Of a stretch of DNA of 47,645 bases, positions 3,821 to 10,240 are shown piece after piece; positions within the stretch are counted from its first letter, which is position 1; every line of letters begins with the position of its first letter. The notes under the pieces were generated by a model, which made no database searches, had not been told where the DNA came from, and was given only the letters and a program-made list of their open reading frames with translations. The stretch is from Candidatus Nanohalarchaeota archaeon (GTDB lineage Archaea > Nanohalarchaeota > Nanosalinia > Nanosalinales > Nanosalinaceae), in contig JALDAN010000002.1 of NCBI GenBank assembly GCA_022729355.1, positions 1 through 47,645 of the forward strand. Direction: 5' to 3'. Position numbers and translations under genes: made by a program.

Positions 3821-4792
3821 CTAAAGAGGCCGGTCGGTTTTAATACTGTATCTTTGCTTCAGCGGCACTTCATTTTTGAATCTCTCGAATTTTGCGTTTG
3901 CTTCACTGCTCAGTTCAGATAATCTTTTTCCTGTTCCTTTGACAGGAGGATCAACTATCCGATGTTTCCTCATGGCCTCGTATCTATCGTGTTCAGCACC
4001 TTTCTCTACTGAGATGTTCTCATTAATAGCTTCAAGGCCTTTTTCCAGTCCTTCATCCTGTCTTAGTTTTTTCAAGACCTGTTCATCGTTCTTGAAAAGA
4101 TCTTCTTCCTTTATCACTCCTTTTTCCATTCCTTTCTCAAGTAGCTCTACCATCAACATTGATGCAGCTTCGTGCTGTTCATTGAAGAAGACTTCCTTAT
4201 TCAAAATCATGAATAAATCCATAATTCTATGAGCTGTCTCTTCGTCATTAGCCACTATAACCTCATCTTCTACATCTAGGCCTTCCAGTACTTCATCCAC
4301 ATCATTTCTGTCGATAGCTCCATATTTGAAAAGATCTCTCAGAGTATAATCAAGACGGTCAGCACAGATATCAGGCCTGTCTCTCTCAAGGACGGAGAAG
4401 TTCTCCTCATCGAATATGTATTCCGGATCGTAGCCATATTCCTCCACTAGTTCGTCAAGGCTATAGTTTTCGATGAATTTTTCATGATGATCTTCATGAT
4501 ATGTTTGATCCTGTCTGCGATAAATCTGATCAGCTAGATGGCTGAAAGCAGTATGGCTTATATCATGCACAATAGCTGCCACAACTTCCTCTTCACTGCA
4601 GCCAAACTTCTTGCAAAGAATTGCAACTCCCAGACTGTGCTCAAATCTACTAGTATCCATATCAGGATTCACTAGAAAGTCTGCACCGTTCTGATGCACC
4701 TTCTTGAGGCGTTGCATCCCGTTGTTCTGTATTACTTTTTCCTCCAGTCCCGTGAATTCGACTTCTCCGTAAATAGGGTCATTGTATTTCAT
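3821..4792 (-). CDS. HD superfamily phosphohydrolase (COG1078/dNTPase-like)
   Basis: RFEHSLGVAILCKKFG..AAIVHDISHTAFSHLAD..DICADRLDYTLRDLF. Confidence 0.85.
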   Translation of the reverse strand: MKYNDPIYGEVEFTGLEEKVIQNNGMQRLKKVHQNGADFLVNPDMDTSRFEHSLGVAILCKKFGCSEEEVVAAIVHDISHTAFSHLADQIYRRQDQTYHEDHHEKFIENYSLDELVEEYGYDPEYIFDEENFSVLERDRPDICADRLDYTLRDLFKYGAIDRNDVDEVLEGLDVEDEVIVANDEETAHRIMDLFMILNKEVFFNEQHEAASMLMVELLEKGMEKGVIKEEDLFKNDEQVLKKLRQDEGLEKGLEAINENISVEKGAEHDRYEAMRKHRIVDPPVKGTGKRLSELSSEANAKFERFKNEVPLKQRYSIKTDRPL

Positions 4793-5370
4793 TGTTCTAG
4801 TACCTCGTATGCAAAGTCTCTGACCTGTGAATAGGCCTCTTCTAATCCTTTTTCATCGTTTTCTATCACTACATGCTCGATTCCGTGTTCACTGTATATC
4901 TGGAAGTGATTATCCCTTACTCTATCGTAGAAGTCCAGTATCTCATCGTCCCCTTCCTCGAAATGCGGACTCCTATTCCAGATGTTCTCTAAAGGCATAT
5001 TGAAGAAGACTGCATAAATATCTGTATCCGTCTCCTCACTGACGACCTGAATGTATTCATTTTGATCTCTTACAAGGCCTTCTCTGGCAGTCTCCATGCT
5101 ATGAGCAAGGTTTCCGAAGTGCCATGTCTCAACTACGGCGTGATCCAGATCTCCATCCAGGATATCTCTGTCACGTGAGGCTTCTTCTTCGTGTATGGCT
5201 GACTGGAAGGCATGATCGCCTTCTTCTCCCCAGTCAGCTCCTTCTTCATCGATCAGTTTCTGAGCTACTTCTGGGAAATAGTTGAGGCCTTCTCTTTCCT
5301 CCAGCATTTCTCCTAGACTGGATTTACCTGCTGTATGCACTCCATTCAAGGCCAGTATACTGTCAGCCAT
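4789..5370 (-). CDS. P-loop ATPase/kinase (AAA_28-like)
   Basis: Walker A-like NGVHTAGKSSLGEML; overlaps neighbours by 1-4 nt. Confidence 0.7.
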   Translation of the reverse strand: MADSILALNGVHTAGKSSLGEMLEEREGLNYFPEVAQKLIDEEGADWGEEGDHAFQSAIHEEEASRDRDILDGDLDHAVVETWHFGNLAHSMETAREGLVRDQNEYIQVVSEETDTDIYAVFFNMPLENIWNRSPHFEEGDDEILDFYDRVRDNHFQIYSEHGIEHVVIENDEKGLEEAYSQVRDFAYEVLEQ

Positions 5371-7130
5371 TAATCCTCATCCTTGAGATCCATAGGCTGC
5401 TCCTGATTTGAGCCGTTCCTGTAAACAGTCATTCCGTTCAGACCGGCATTGTAGGCCTTCAGGTATACATCTTTGACAGCTTCTGGATCAACGTCTTTAG
5501 GCAGATTAATCGTTTTGGAAACACTTTCATCAACGAAGGCCTGGGCCTCCACTAGGACGTTAAAGTGCTCTCTGTGCCCTATCTCTATGGCTGTGCGGAA
5601 GATATCCTTGACTTTCTGCGGCAGATCAAGTTCCTGGCAGCTACCGTTCTCTTCAACCTGTTGTATAACTTCTTCGCTGTTTACTCCTTCCAGGCTTTCC
5701 AAGGCTTTCCTGAATTCTTGGTTTACATCTCCGTAACGATCTACCAGACTGAATATCGGCTCGATTTGCTGGCTTGTATCGAAAGTCATGGCTGATCGAC
5801 CCGTCGGAGGTAGTATAACTGTTGTACTATTCCTTAAACCGGTTTTTTCGATCAACTTGTCAAGACTTCTCCAGTCGGCTTCAGTCACTTTCCGGCTTTC
5901 CTCATCTCCGAACTTTTCCGTCAGGAAGTTGCGGCCATTCTCACTGTACTTCGAACTGTCCCAGCCAGCGAAGTTACCACGTTCCTTAGCCAGTTCCACG
6001 GAGTACTTCTTGCTGTGGTAATTAATGAAAGACAGAGTATCTTTCAGCAACTGATTGCCTTCCTCACTATCGTATTCCAGTCCATGTCTCGCAAGTAATT
6101 TACTGTAGCCGCAGTAACCGATACCTATCTTTCTGCTTTTACGCATTGCCTCTACAGAAGCCTCATGACTGTAATGATCAATACTGTGCTCAAGTACGTC
6201 GTCAAGAAATCGTGTGATAAGTCTCGAGGCCTCTTCAAGTTCCTCCCATTTAATATTCTCCCCATCACTGAATGCAGCAATATTGATGGAGGCAAACTGG
6301 CATGTCTCTCCTTCTGCAAGACCTACCTCTCCACATGGAGCAACTGAAACATAATTCAGCTCTTCATTGAAAGGCCTCCTCCTGTTCATATTATCAAGGA
6401 ATATAAGGCCTGGATCAGCGCAGTCCCATGCACATGTCACTATAAGATCCATCAGTTCACCGGAGTCAATTTCATCTCCGTTTCTCAGTTCAAAGCTTTC
6501 TCCATTTCTGTAGGCCTCCATGAATTCATCAGACATATTCACTGAGAGATTGAATTTCCAGTCGATCTGCGGATTCTCATGTTTGATCTTCACAAATTCC
6601 TTGATAGCAGGATTGTCAACTTTCATTATTCCCATATTGCCTACAGGCCTGTGCTGCTCATCTCTTTCAAGGCCTGTTCTGGCTATCTCCTGAAGATCCA
6701 GCAGTACTTCAATAGGATTCTGAGCTTTATCCAGAGCGAATCCGGTTCCCATCCCCTCCTCGTGATACGTATCTACTTTATCCTTAATTTCGCTGAAGTC
6801 GTTGTTGAGGTCGACTGGAGGTACTGAGCAGGCGCTTAGAGGCCTTTCATTGAATCTTCCGGCGTTCGTCATTATTGGAGTGCTTGGCACTATTTTTCTT
6901 TCCAGGAATAGTTCTAGCATCTTCTGTGAGAAGTCTATTGCATCTTCTGTGTCTGCTCCAAATTCTTTCTCTATTTCAGGTAGTATGCCTGCTACTCTTT
7001 CCAGCATCTCTGTAGGTGTTTCTTCTTCGGCGAGTATGTCGCCGTCTCTCATGATTTTTTCTGCCTTTTTCGAAGGGGTGAACTCTGTTTGTGCTTTGAT
7101 CTTTGCTCTTTGTTTGGTCTGTTGTGTCAT
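5370..7130 (-). CDS. ribonucleotide reductase large subunit, class II (adenosylcobalamin)-like
   Basis: GMGTGFALDKAQNPIEVLLDL..APCGEVGLAEGETCQFASINIAAF..PPTGRSAMTFDTSQQIEPIFS..NGMTVYRNGS. Confidence 0.88.
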   Translation of the reverse strand: MTQQTKQRAKIKAQTEFTPSKKAEKIMRDGDILAEEETPTEMLERVAGILPEIEKEFGADTEDAIDFSQKMLELFLERKIVPSTPIMTNAGRFNERPLSACSVPPVDLNNDFSEIKDKVDTYHEEGMGTGFALDKAQNPIEVLLDLQEIARTGLERDEQHRPVGNMGIMKVDNPAIKEFVKIKHENPQIDWKFNLSVNMSDEFMEAYRNGESFELRNGDEIDSGELMDLIVTCAWDCADPGLIFLDNMNRRRPFNEELNYVSVAPCGEVGLAEGETCQFASINIAAFSDGENIKWEELEEASRLITRFLDDVLEHSIDHYSHEASVEAMRKSRKIGIGYCGYSKLLARHGLEYDSEEGNQLLKDTLSFINYHSKKYSVELAKERGNFAGWDSSKYSENGRNFLTEKFGDEESRKVTEADWRSLDKLIEKTGLRNSTTVILPPTGRSAMTFDTSQQIEPIFSLVDRYGDVNQEFRKALESLEGVNSEEVIQQVEENGSCQELDLPQKVKDIFRTAIEIGHREHFNVLVEAQAFVDESVSKTINLPKDVDPEAVKDVYLKAYNAGLNGMTVYRNGSNQEQPMDLKDED

Positions 7131-7154: not shown

Positions 7155-7502
7155 TTAGAATCGTGTCGAGGTTATCCTTTCTGTGTTCCCGCAGTCTGCG
7201 CATTCGTACATTATCAGGTTGTCTTCATCTCCACGTCCTGCAGGGAATTCGTGTTCTATCGCCTGAGTATGGTCGCATTCTCTGAATTCGTAATTTTTTA
7301 AAGCGTCTTCATCGTATCGTTCCAGTATTTCTGTTATTCCTTCGTCTTCCTGTGCTGTCTCTAGTCTCCATTCACTTCCAAGCTCTACATCGGCGTATTC
7401 ATCGCAGTCTTCACAGTAACCTATGGAGACTTCTCTTCCGTCTTCAGTTTCTAGAGTATCTCTTTCTAGAAGTGAGCCACAGTCTTCATGGAAAAGACTC
7501 AT
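7155..7502 (-). CDS. TFS/TFIIS-like zinc-ribbon protein
   Basis: FHEDCGSLL..GYCEDCDEYADV..ECDHTQAIEHEFPAGRGDEDNLIMYECADCGNTERI; resembles archaeal TFS with variant Zn ligands; ATGA overlap with tmk. Confidence 0.65.
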   Translation of the reverse strand: MSLFHEDCGSLLERDTLETEDGREVSIGYCEDCDEYADVELGSEWRLETAQEDEGITEILERYDEDALKNYEFRECDHTQAIEHEFPAGRGDEDNLIMYECADCGNTERITSTRF

Positions 7503-8077
7503 TTCAAACCGGCCTCCTCTAGTGTACGGTCAACTACATTTTGTACTCCTTCAACTGCCTCTATCTTGGTCATGTCATAATCTTCTACTGCTCTCTCGTA
7601 TGCTTGTTCGACACCGGAGTAGCCGATTTGATCTGCGTCTCTACCTTCGTCTTTTGATGTTCGACCTGATTTACGCTCTAGACGTGTTTCTGTATTTGTC
7701 CAGAGGTAGAACATGTGATCTGGTTCAAGGAAGTCGAATTCACGGGCCAGCTCTCTCCATCTTCCGCTTTCATCTTCGTCAGCTTCATTATAGACTACTG
7801 TGGTAGGATAGTATCTGTCTAGAACCACATCTTCTCCCTGATTGATGCGCTCTTCAATTTGATCGCCAAGCGCAGAGTTAGACGCCATATACATCAGGAA
7901 CTGCGTCTGTTTGCTGTGTGGTTCGCTATCCACATATTCACGTATTTCCTGTATCCCTGGGCCCGGACTCTCCATATATATTCCATCTATTTCATCCGCA
8001 AAGGCCTCAGCTACTGTAGATTTGCCGACTCCGTCCAGTCCTTCAAATACGAAAAAATTTCCTGACTCTCCACTCAT
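7499..8077 (-). CDS. tmk: thymidylate kinase
   Basis: FFVFEGLDGVGKSTVAEAFADEI..VVLDRYYPTTVVYN. Confidence 0.9.
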   Translation of the reverse strand: MSGESGNFFVFEGLDGVGKSTVAEAFADEIDGIYMESPGPGIQEIREYVDSEPHSKQTQFLMYMASNSALGDQIEERINQGEDVVLDRYYPTTVVYNEADEDESGRWRELAREFDFLEPDHMFYLWTNTETRLERKSGRTSKDEGRDADQIGYSGVEQAYERAVEDYDMTKIEAVEGVQNVVDRTLEEAGLK

Positions 8078-8080
8078 ATC

Positions 8081-8095
8081 AAGTCAACTTGACTT
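8081..8095. promoter_or_regulatory. Putative operator A: AAGTCAA-C-TTGACTT perfect inverted repeat between the tmk TATA element and start codon
   Basis: Palindrome read directly; 3 nt upstream of the tmk start. Confidence 0.65.
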
Positions 8096-8097
8096 GA

Positions 8098-8107
8098 CTT
8101 TTATATA
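8098..8107 (-). promoter_or_regulatory. tmk operon TATA box (leaderless-type spacing)
   Basis: AGATATATAAAAG on the minus strand about 25 nt upstream of the ATG. Confidence 0.6.
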
Positions 8108-8112
8108 TCTTT

Positions 8113-8129
8113 GTCAAGTGGAATTGACT
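8113..8129. promoter_or_regulatory. Putative operator B: GTCAAGTGGAATTGACT (minus strand AGTCAATTCCACTTGAC)
   Basis: Shares a 16-nt exact match with operator C at 10136-10151. Confidence 0.7.
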
Positions 8130-8157
8130 GACATCAGTTTCTTCTGAGAGAAAAATT

Positions 8158-8847
8158 CTATTCGAACTCAAGATTTGCGAGTTCAAAGCTGTGATCTTCG
8201 TTCTCTTTTATTGTCCATTCTCCGAAGAATCTCTCATCTTCGTTTCTGGACTTTCTGATTAATTGATTGAGGCCTGGTATCAAATGCATTTCTTCGAGGC
8301 CTTCTACTTCATAGAAGTCATCTCCTCTTTCTATATCATCGTCTTCAATAACTGTGAAAAATGAGATATAGTGTTGTTTAAATCCTCCAAATAGGTGAAC
8401 GTTGTTCCTCATAACACCTCTTATGTCTGCTTCAGAGGACTCTTTATCAAACTCCTTTCTGAAGGCCTCTTCAGCAGATCTCTGTATCGACTCATCCTTC
8501 TCCGTTCTCAGTACAAGGCCTCTGAAGGAGCCTGGAAAAGGATCGAGAGGATCATCTCGTCTCTTAAGGTATACAGAATCTCCTGAAAATATTAGTACAT
8601 GATTGATTATCAGAGGCTGCCGTATCTGATTCTGCTCGATGTAAGCAAGATACTCTTTTCCCTCGGCTGTTGTAGAGTATTTCTTATCCTTCTTCTCGAT
8701 CAAATTTTCCTCTTGAAGCTTGTTGAGGTGGAAAGATATCTTGTTGCTACTTTTGTTCCCCTGTAGTTCAGAGAATCTCTTCCTGTTTCTGTAGCCCAGT
8801 TTCTCCATTATAGATTTCTGTATCTCATGTAATTCAATATTCTTCAT
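8158..8847 (-). CDS. N-terminal winged-helix, C-terminal Nudix-fold putative transcriptional regulator
   Basis: wHTH (FSELQGNKSSNKISFHLNKLQEENLIEKKDKKYSTTAEGKEYL) then Nudix-like GLVLRTEKDESIQRSAEEAFRKEFDKESS; 12 nt after the GCS2 gene. Confidence 0.75.
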   Translation of the reverse strand: MKNIELHEIQKSIMEKLGYRNRKRFSELQGNKSSNKISFHLNKLQEENLIEKKDKKYSTTAEGKEYLAYIEQNQIRQPLIINHVLIFSGDSVYLKRRDDPLDPFPGSFRGLVLRTEKDESIQRSAEEAFRKEFDKESSEADIRGVMRNNVHLFGGFKQHYISFFTVIEDDDIERGDDFYEVEGLEEMHLIPGLNQLIRKSRNEDERFFGEWTIKENEDHSFELANLEFE

Positions 8848-8859
8848 TTTTCAAAGGCC

Positions 8860-10131
8860 TCACTGTTTAATTCCCAGAGCATTAAAAAGAGCTTTACGGT
8901 TTCCTGCATTCTTCGTTTCTCTTTGAAATCTGTTAGCTAATCTATCTGATGGCAACTCTCCTTTTTCGACTCGTTCCTTCAAGATCTCCATATAATTTTC
9001 TGAATCTATTCCATAGATCTCCAATCCTTCAGAGGCCTTTTCTATCTCCTTGAGAAGCATGTTTTCACTTTCTTCAAGAACACCTTCAGGACTATAAAAT
9101 TCTCCTTCCAGTCCGTGTCTCATGGCCTGTTCTCTATTATGATTAACTTTCTCGATGTCAAGAAGTTGTTCGCTTGAATCTATAGCGTAAAGTAAACGGC
9201 CTATACAGAATGCATGAACTGCTACATCTTCTCTTACTGACGGCTGAGTCGACGCTATACGTGACTCAACGATTAAATCATTCTCGCTGAATTTTATTCG
9301 GGAATCCTTCCAGAAATGCGCAATGTTTTTCTCCAGAATACTTTCTTCATACTCTATGACTTCGGGCCAGGCCTCAACACGCTCTAGATAATCTCTCATC
9401 GAGTCGAAGTAGCTATCCAGACGTCCTATATCAATCTCATCTGTACTATGTGATTTCTCCCAGAGAATCATCCGTAAATCTGAGAGGCCTGTATCCCTGC
9501 CATCAAGAAATCTGGCGTTCCCGGACAACGCTGAAATATAGGGAGATATCATGTATATGTAATTTGCTTTACTAACTGCATCCTCAAAGGAAGAGGCCTC
9601 GATATTAGTGTGTAAAGCTGATATAAGACTTGCCGCTCTTGCATCGCCTACGTCTATCTCGTTCTTATCTCCTAACTTTACGGTTTCATCATTTCTGAAA
9701 TATCTGTTTATTTTCTTCAAAGAAGGTTTCTGACTTAATTCAAGCTTTTCAAGTTCTCTGAAAGGATTTGTGCCGCTTCTGAGTAAGAAAAGATTTCTGT
9801 CCAGAGCTTCTTCCCTAAGTTTTTTCTCTTTCTCACTTATTTCCTGTTCAAGTTGTTTAAACGAACTCAATGCCAGTGCATCTGTAGCTATCTCGATGGA
9901 GTCTGCTGCGAGTTCTTGCTTGCAGAAATCAAGAGAGTCAAGGATTTCATTCCGCTTCTCCAAATCCTGTAAATGCTGCCGTTCTTCAACGAGAAAATAC
10001 TCTGTTTCCACTCCAACCTTCACAGTCGAGTCATCCTTCCTGAATTTCCTCTCATTATCAAACAGCTTCTCAACTTCATTCGAAAAGCACGATTCAGTGC
10101 TGTTTTCAGAACCTTCGTTAACAGATGCCAC
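8860..10131 (-). CDS. GCS2-family glutamate-cysteine ligase-like protein
   Basis: VGVETEYFLVEE..ELAADSIEIATDAL..SALHTNIEAS..ISPYISALSGNARFLDGRDTGLSDLR; GTG start. Confidence 0.85.
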   Translation of the reverse strand: MASVNEGSENSTESCFSNEVEKLFDNERKFRKDDSTVKVGVETEYFLVEERQHLQDLEKRNEILDSLDFCKQELAADSIEIATDALALSSFKQLEQEISEKEKKLREEALDRNLFLLRSGTNPFRELEKLELSQKPSLKKINRYFRNDETVKLGDKNEIDVGDARAASLISALHTNIEASSFEDAVSKANYIYMISPYISALSGNARFLDGRDTGLSDLRMILWEKSHSTDEIDIGRLDSYFDSMRDYLERVEAWPEVIEYEESILEKNIAHFWKDSRIKFSENDLIVESRIASTQPSVREDVAVHAFCIGRLLYAIDSSEQLLDIEKVNHNREQAMRHGLEGEFYSPEGVLEESENMLLKEIEKASEGLEIYGIDSENYMEILKERVEKGELPSDRLANRFQRETKNAGNRKALFNALGIKQ

Positions 10132-10135
10132 TTCT

Positions 10136-10152
10136 AGTCAATTCCACTTGAT
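10136..10152. promoter_or_regulatory. Putative operator C: AGTCAATTCCACTTGAT just upstream of the GCS2 start
   Basis: 16-nt AGTCAATTCCACTTGA identical to operator B (reverse strand); lies between TTTTAAAG TATA-like element (about 10155-10162) and GTG start. Confidence 0.7.
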
Positions 10153-10240
10153 TCTTTTAAAGCTTACAGGTTCGGCATCAATTTCTCATCAATGATTTGT
10201 ATAAACGTGAAGTTCCAAAATATTTTACAGTGTTACAGCT

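Follow-up and report, generated by a model that had tools for sequence, protein, structure and literature searches.

The window (the whole analysed stretch of 47,645 nucleotides) contains two transcription units whose promoters share a set of short repeated sequences (Table 1). The first unit comprises a GCS2-family ligase gene followed, after a gap of 12 nt (8860 to 8847), by the gene for a protein that combines a winged helix (wHTH) with a Nudix-like domain. Both the fusion and its predicted co-transcription with GCS2 had been put forward in the initial annotation, and they are supported by this short gap and by a model of the Nudix fold. The second unit starts with the thymidylate kinase-like gene tmk and continues with the genes for a small putative zinc-ribbon protein, a ribonucleotide reductase (RNR), a P-loop NTPase and an HD phosphohydrolase. 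No NAD genes were recognised in the two units.

Table 1. Genes and candidate regulatory elements of the two transcription units (positions in the window)
Feature	Positions	Strand	Remarks
SAMHD1-like HD phosphohydrolase	3821..4792	-	
P-loop NTPase (AAA_28), kinase-like	4789..5370	-	
Class II (adenosylcobalamin-type, NrdJ-like) ribonucleotide reductase	5370..7130	-	
Small protein, TFIIS-like zinc ribbon	7155..7502	-	weak match, below gathering cut-off
Thymidylate kinase-like (tmk)	7499..8077	-	first gene of target operon; Pfam Thymidylate_kin 1.8e-20
Site B, candidate operator	8079..8097	.	perfect 19-bp palindrome TCAAGTCAA-G-TTGACTTGA (centre also written C); between tmk TATA and ATG
TATA-like element of tmk operon (putative)	8098..8109	-	GATATATAAAAG; centre ~27 nt from ATG; leaderless type
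Site A, second candidate tmk operator	8114..8129	-	exact 16-mer; 5' of TATA
wHTH-Nudix protein, proposed repressor/sensor	8158..8847	-	Nudix catalytic residues lost
GCS2-family carboxylate-amine ligase	8860..10131	-	GTG start; Pfam GCS2 E=3e-16
Site C, candidate GCS2 operator	10133..10151	.	contains exact 16-mer 10136-10151; between TATA and GTG
TATA-like element of GCS2 operon (putative)	10154..10162	-	CTTTAAAAG; centre ~27 nt from GTG

The reductase of the second unit reaches 382.6 bits against TIGR02504, for which the cut-off is 399.95. The same genome encodes two further systems, namely NrdR with a class II enzyme (L105:8443-11886) and a class I large and small chain (L106:8939-11646), and the window RNR is therefore accessory. 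Three ribonucleotide reductase systems, the one at 5370-7130 among them, are found in this nanohaloarchaeal-type genome of 0.89 Mb. A viral origin of the operon or the regulator was rejected: viral contigs contained no wHTH-Nudix, NTPase, window RNR subgroup or exact palindrome, tblastn of the wHTH-Nudix protein and the NTPase against phages and plasmids gave no matches, and the window RNR found only generic relatives (~30%) there.

The GCS2 protein belongs to Pfam GCS2 at the superfamily level, and all NCBIfam equivalogs, including gshA, lie far below cut-off. Its relatives in G004, G003 and G015, as well as a second copy in the own genome (L103), are paired with an AstE/AspA-type hydrolase. 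Pairs of this type are located in nanohaloarchaeal genomes at L102:4159-7829, L103:8586-10618, L099:8683-10786 and L101:9407-11589. A thiol supply for ribonucleotide reduction had been suggested as the functional link between the two units. This thiol role is unsupported, since most GCS2 relatives neighbour such hydrolases and not an RNR, and a nucleotide-derived signal is favoured instead.

A separate feature of this DNA is the over-representation of AGGCCT, which occurs 220 times in the window (9.1 expected). The same holds for other contigs of the genome (L103 and L104; 77 vs 2.9 and 78 vs 3.8 expected) and for G003 (L101, 78 vs 4.1), and enrichment is also listed for G016 (L141). Counts are at or below expectation in the same-genus G001 and in G008. 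The hexamer seems to be an archaeal counterpart of HIP1, a palindrome of cyanobacteria.

Candidate operators at the tmk and GCS2 promoters

The 16-mer AGTCAATTCCACTTGA is present in exact form at 8114-8129 (minus strand) and 10136-10151 (plus strand), as had been reported initially; when up to three mismatches are allowed, five matches are found (0.73 expected). The two exact copies are the only ones in the 886-kb genome. In shuffled promoter pairs, a common 12-mer arose in just 0.45% of the trials; a common 16-mer is therefore far rarer. The window itself is not poor in exact 16-mer repeats (~8 independent cases, mostly coding, vs 0.5 expected from shuffles), and the signal of AGTCAATTCCACTTGA is that it joins two neighbouring promoters.

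Both copies lie beside a TATA element, as the initial annotation stated, but they are not equivalent: the tmk copy (site A) precedes the TATA element by 4 nt, whereas the GCS2 copy lies between TATA and the start codon. The positional counterpart of site C is not site A but a third and better site that had been missed, the perfect palindrome of site B, which fills the gap between the tmk TATA element and the start codon. Written out to 19 bp on the minus strand, site C reads TCAAGTGGA-A-TTGACTAGA and matches this palindrome at 15/18 positions. Sites B and C are found in identical register, each ending 1 nt before the start codon and with the TATA centres ~27 nt away. The TCAAGTNNNNTTGACT core is common to sites A, B and C and is present on both strands of site B. 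Perfect palindromes of such length are not rare by themselves (1.2 expected per window in shuffles); site B is notable for its position and company, not for its mere occurrence.

The core is confined to very few places. In the own genome it occurs four times, all at the three sites of the two promoters, and across the 28 genomes of the order it recurs solely in G008 (two occurrences), compared to ~9 occurrences over eight genomes for its reversed control. With up to three mismatches, the 19-bp palindrome retrieves six sites from these 28 genomes (reversed control: ~13 sites), of which two are the window promoters, two belong to G008, and G016 and G004 contribute one each. One of the two G008 sites is the promoter directly adjoining the wHTH-Nudix ortholog. 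A second operator-like site in G008 (15/18 match; L094:1498-1516, C9:81177) is located upstream of a peptidyl-tRNA hydrolase-like gene, close to a tRNA-like stretch.

The wHTH-Nudix protein and its relatives

Pfam detects a weak winged helix alone in the window protein (DUF7347 and HTH_45, below gathering cut-offs) and a weak NUDIX match in its orthologs. Searching with a profile of the three orthologs gave distant matches in another six genomes of archaea. Seven full-length fusions were read from five of those genomes, and NUDIX is above the Pfam cut-off in six of the seven. An AlphaFold model based on a ten-sequence alignment (pLDDT 88.4, pTM 0.78) replaced an earlier one from three sequences that was too weak (pLDDT 53.5). 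The predicted layout consists of the wHTH (8-59), a linker helix (61-72), the Nudix domain (79-201) and a C-terminal hairpin (207-228). Profile A7 matches MutT 3fk9 with E=3e-19, and the best Foldseek matches are MutT/MTH1 (MTH1 at 3.9e-7). Profile, Foldseek and the Pfam NUDIX matches of the six distant members together place the domain in the Nudix fold superfamily.

The intact Nudix box (GX5EX7REUXEEXGU) is absent from the window protein. In the alignment, the member from G368 (GKIEFGESFKQAVDRELLEETD) retains REllEE, while the window protein displays EAFRKE at this position. The R, E and E have been lost, so catalysis should be lost as well, and the Nudix domain of the 8158-8847 protein is predicted to be catalytically dead. 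At six of nine loci, the wHTH-Nudix gene has a separate gene for a canonical Nudix hydrolase as its direct neighbour; gene duplication could be an alternative cause of this adjacency. In G104 these two genes are divergent, and their spacer (L155:6085-6206) contains two perfect inverted repeats with arms of 12 bp (ATTAGCAAAAGG-N6-CCTTTTGCTAAT) and 9 bp, a candidate operator region of a distant family member.

Close orthologs are found solely in G008 and G015 besides the own genome, which gives a sample of three orthologs from two genera. Their recognition helix is nearly identical (SNKI/L-S/A-FHLN), and a search of the own genome at E<=1e-3 detected no second relative of the protein. In both G008 and G015, a canonical Nudix hydrolase gene is followed by the wHTH-Nudix gene and then by a gene of 157/172 aa, which is limited to these two among the 149 genomes searched. 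The spacer before this last gene contains TCAAGTCGATTTGAGTCGA in G008, a 15/18 match to the palindrome and the sole match at this level in unselected loci, the window's own sites aside. In G015 the spacer contains GTCAACCGAGGTTGACT. Both motifs are located ~30 nt downstream of a TATA element.

The core TCAA-N6-TTGA[C/G]T is thus present in the promoter beside the regulator gene in both other ortholog genomes (2/2), and the target gene differs. In 326 kb of loci, this core is found at the two window promoters, in the spacers beside the two other orthologs (L107:10920 and L108:1251), and at two unrelated places. It is a relaxed form that was partly fitted after the relatives' spacers had been seen; the strict palindrome recovers the G008 site and misses the G015 site. 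Because the core lies beside the ortholog in both genomes, the motif appears to travel with the regulator and not with tmk or GCS2. This co-location supports the wHTH-Nudix protein as the putative operator binder.

Proposed local regulon and its repression

The initial annotation predicted a shared operator, autoregulation and control of the tmk/RNR/HD operon. This part is supported, and the core beside both other orthologs is new evidence for the wHTH-Nudix protein as the binder. We consider it likely (probability about 0.68) that 8158-8847 encodes a domain-swapped analogue of NrtR: a local, autoregulated, nucleotide-responsive repressor acting on operators of the TCAAGTCAA-N-TTGACTTGA type. 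The protein would consist of an N-terminal ArsR/MarR-like winged helix and a dead MutT/MTH1-like Nudix sensor domain, and would bind these operators as a dimer. In its own GCS2-regulator operon, a single operator would occupy the space between TATA and the start codon. In the tmk-(Zn ribbon)-RNR-NTPase-HD operon, the perfect operator would take up the equivalent space, with a second operator upstream of TATA. The bound repressor would then block TFB/RNA polymerase at these near-leaderless promoters. Occupation of the Nudix pocket by a nucleotide would alter the DNA affinity, thereby releasing or engaging the repressor, so that the repressor would be switched together with GCS2 and the accessory operon for dNTP supply. 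The ligand would most likely be a dNTP or another nucleoside di/triphosphate. A dNTP is favoured because of the target genes and the MTH1-like domain, albeit with little certainty; the PDB holds a very large number of MTH1 structures, which weakens a ligand inference from fold resemblance.

It is also conceivable, though unlikely, that the operators are genuine and that a different transcription factor, encoded elsewhere, binds them, the wHTH-Nudix gene being no more than a regulated member. From general knowledge and not from a count, other wHTH proteins are expected in an archaeal genome of such size. In addition, the sequence in front of the G008 regulator gene itself showed no operator, and autoregulation is therefore not conserved. 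However, the motif accompanies the wHTH-Nudix gene in both other ortholog genomes despite differing neighbours. Furthermore, among the 25 genomes of the order that lack an ortholog, only two contain a palindrome-like site (one each), and none contains TCAAGTNNNNTTGACT.

An activator or dual regulator that acts through site A, with site B as auxiliary, has a lower probability still. The location of site A just upstream of the tmk TATA element is compatible with TBP/TFB recruitment, but the best site (B) and the sole GCS2 site (C) lie where a bound protein should hinder initiation. Least probable of all is that the repeat arose in AT-rich promoter DNA by chance or as a neutral feature, with no regulatory role: although the window holds several exact 16-mer repeats and shuffles predict about one perfect inverted repeat with 9-bp arms and a short spacer per window, the three sites are confined to two promoters in 886 kb, share one register and recur beside the regulator in two relatives.

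The repressor reading concerns the own genome. The tmk-RNR-NTPase-HD operon is kept in G027 (52, 68, 58 and 57% identity, respectively), where an NrtR-type Nudix-winged-helix gene (L097:8512-9393; NrtR_WHD match 8.9e-26) lies directly upstream of it. There, an inverted repeat CTGGTC-N6-GACCAG is located between TATA and the tmk start; its six-base arms are short and it may be of chance origin. The window motif was found neither upstream of this operon nor upstream of the GCS2 relatives. Conservation at the RNR, tmk and GCS2 genes of relatives had been expected; as the 16-mer is not conserved at these orthologous promoters, a conserved regulon is rejected. On sequence comparison, the proposed regulon of GCS2 and tmk-RNR-NTPase-HD is specific to the own genome, and the wHTH-Nudix orthologs elsewhere adjoin other genes. 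The initial annotation had named such a lack of conservation as refuting its proposal. Formally this is what was found, yet local binding is not thereby refuted, because G027 and the GCS2-bearing G001, G003 and G004 lack the regulator as well.

A more far-reaching proposal would be that wHTH-Nudix proteins constitute a family of repressors, widespread in archaea, which sense nucleotides and have the reverse architecture of NrtR. The member in the own genome would sense dNTPs directly by its dead MTH1-like domain and thereby feed back on the transcription of tmk and RNR, independently of NrdR. This extension is possible but doubtful.

Comparison with known regulators

To our knowledge, NrdR aside, little is known about how archaea control their dNTP supply at the level of transcription, and a literature search in a limited collection turned up no description of a wHTH-Nudix regulator from archaea. 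With its defined 19-bp operator, the small fused sensor, whose genes lie close to Nudix hydrolase genes in several lineages of archaea, offers a readily testable system. If the proposal holds, it would represent a new way of coupling the supply of DNA precursors to a nucleotide signal, by a kind of switch protein that was previously uncharacterised.

The window protein, as proposed, would resemble NrdR in being a nucleotide-responsive repressor of ribonucleotide reductase genes. However, NrdR consists of a Zn ribbon and an ATP-cone, both of which are missing here, and NrdR-type control by the 8158-8847 protein was rejected. The true NrdR is a separate copy (L105:8443-8889) beside the main class II RNR. 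With the ArsR/MarR-like archaeal winged helices (DUF7347, HTH_45), the protein shares a weak N-terminal match and a dimer-type palindromic operator; it differs in that this match is below gathering cut-offs and a Nudix domain is fused to it. The closest fold of the C-terminal domain is that of MutT/MTH1 (NUDT1), from which it is distinguished by the degenerate Nudix box (REUxEE to EAFRKE) and the fusion to a wHTH.

The nearest functional parallel is the NrtR family of Nudix-related regulators that control NAD metabolism (including BtAraR), in which a Nudix sensor is coupled to a winged helix; these are autorepressors with palindromic operators and can be catalytically dead (PMC6800001, PMC10311068, PMC4666351). 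The window protein has predicted palindromic operators at its own and its target promoters, and by analogy it probably works like NrtR. In NrtR, however, the Nudix domain is N-terminal, the wHTH is C-terminal and the response is to ADP-ribose (PMC10311068, PMC6800001). Here the wHTH precedes the Nudix domain, and with this reversed domain order the window protein is not an NrtR. It also displays no NrtR_WHD or AraR_C match, its Nudix domain is nearer to MutT/MTH1, and the system is archaeal with a dNTP operon as target. Both kinds of Nudix regulator adjoin the tmk-RNR-NTPase-HD operon, in different genomes, which hints that the two may respond to the same kind of signal. The comparison suggests that the Nudix fold has been recruited twice as a transcriptional sensor, with opposite domain orders.
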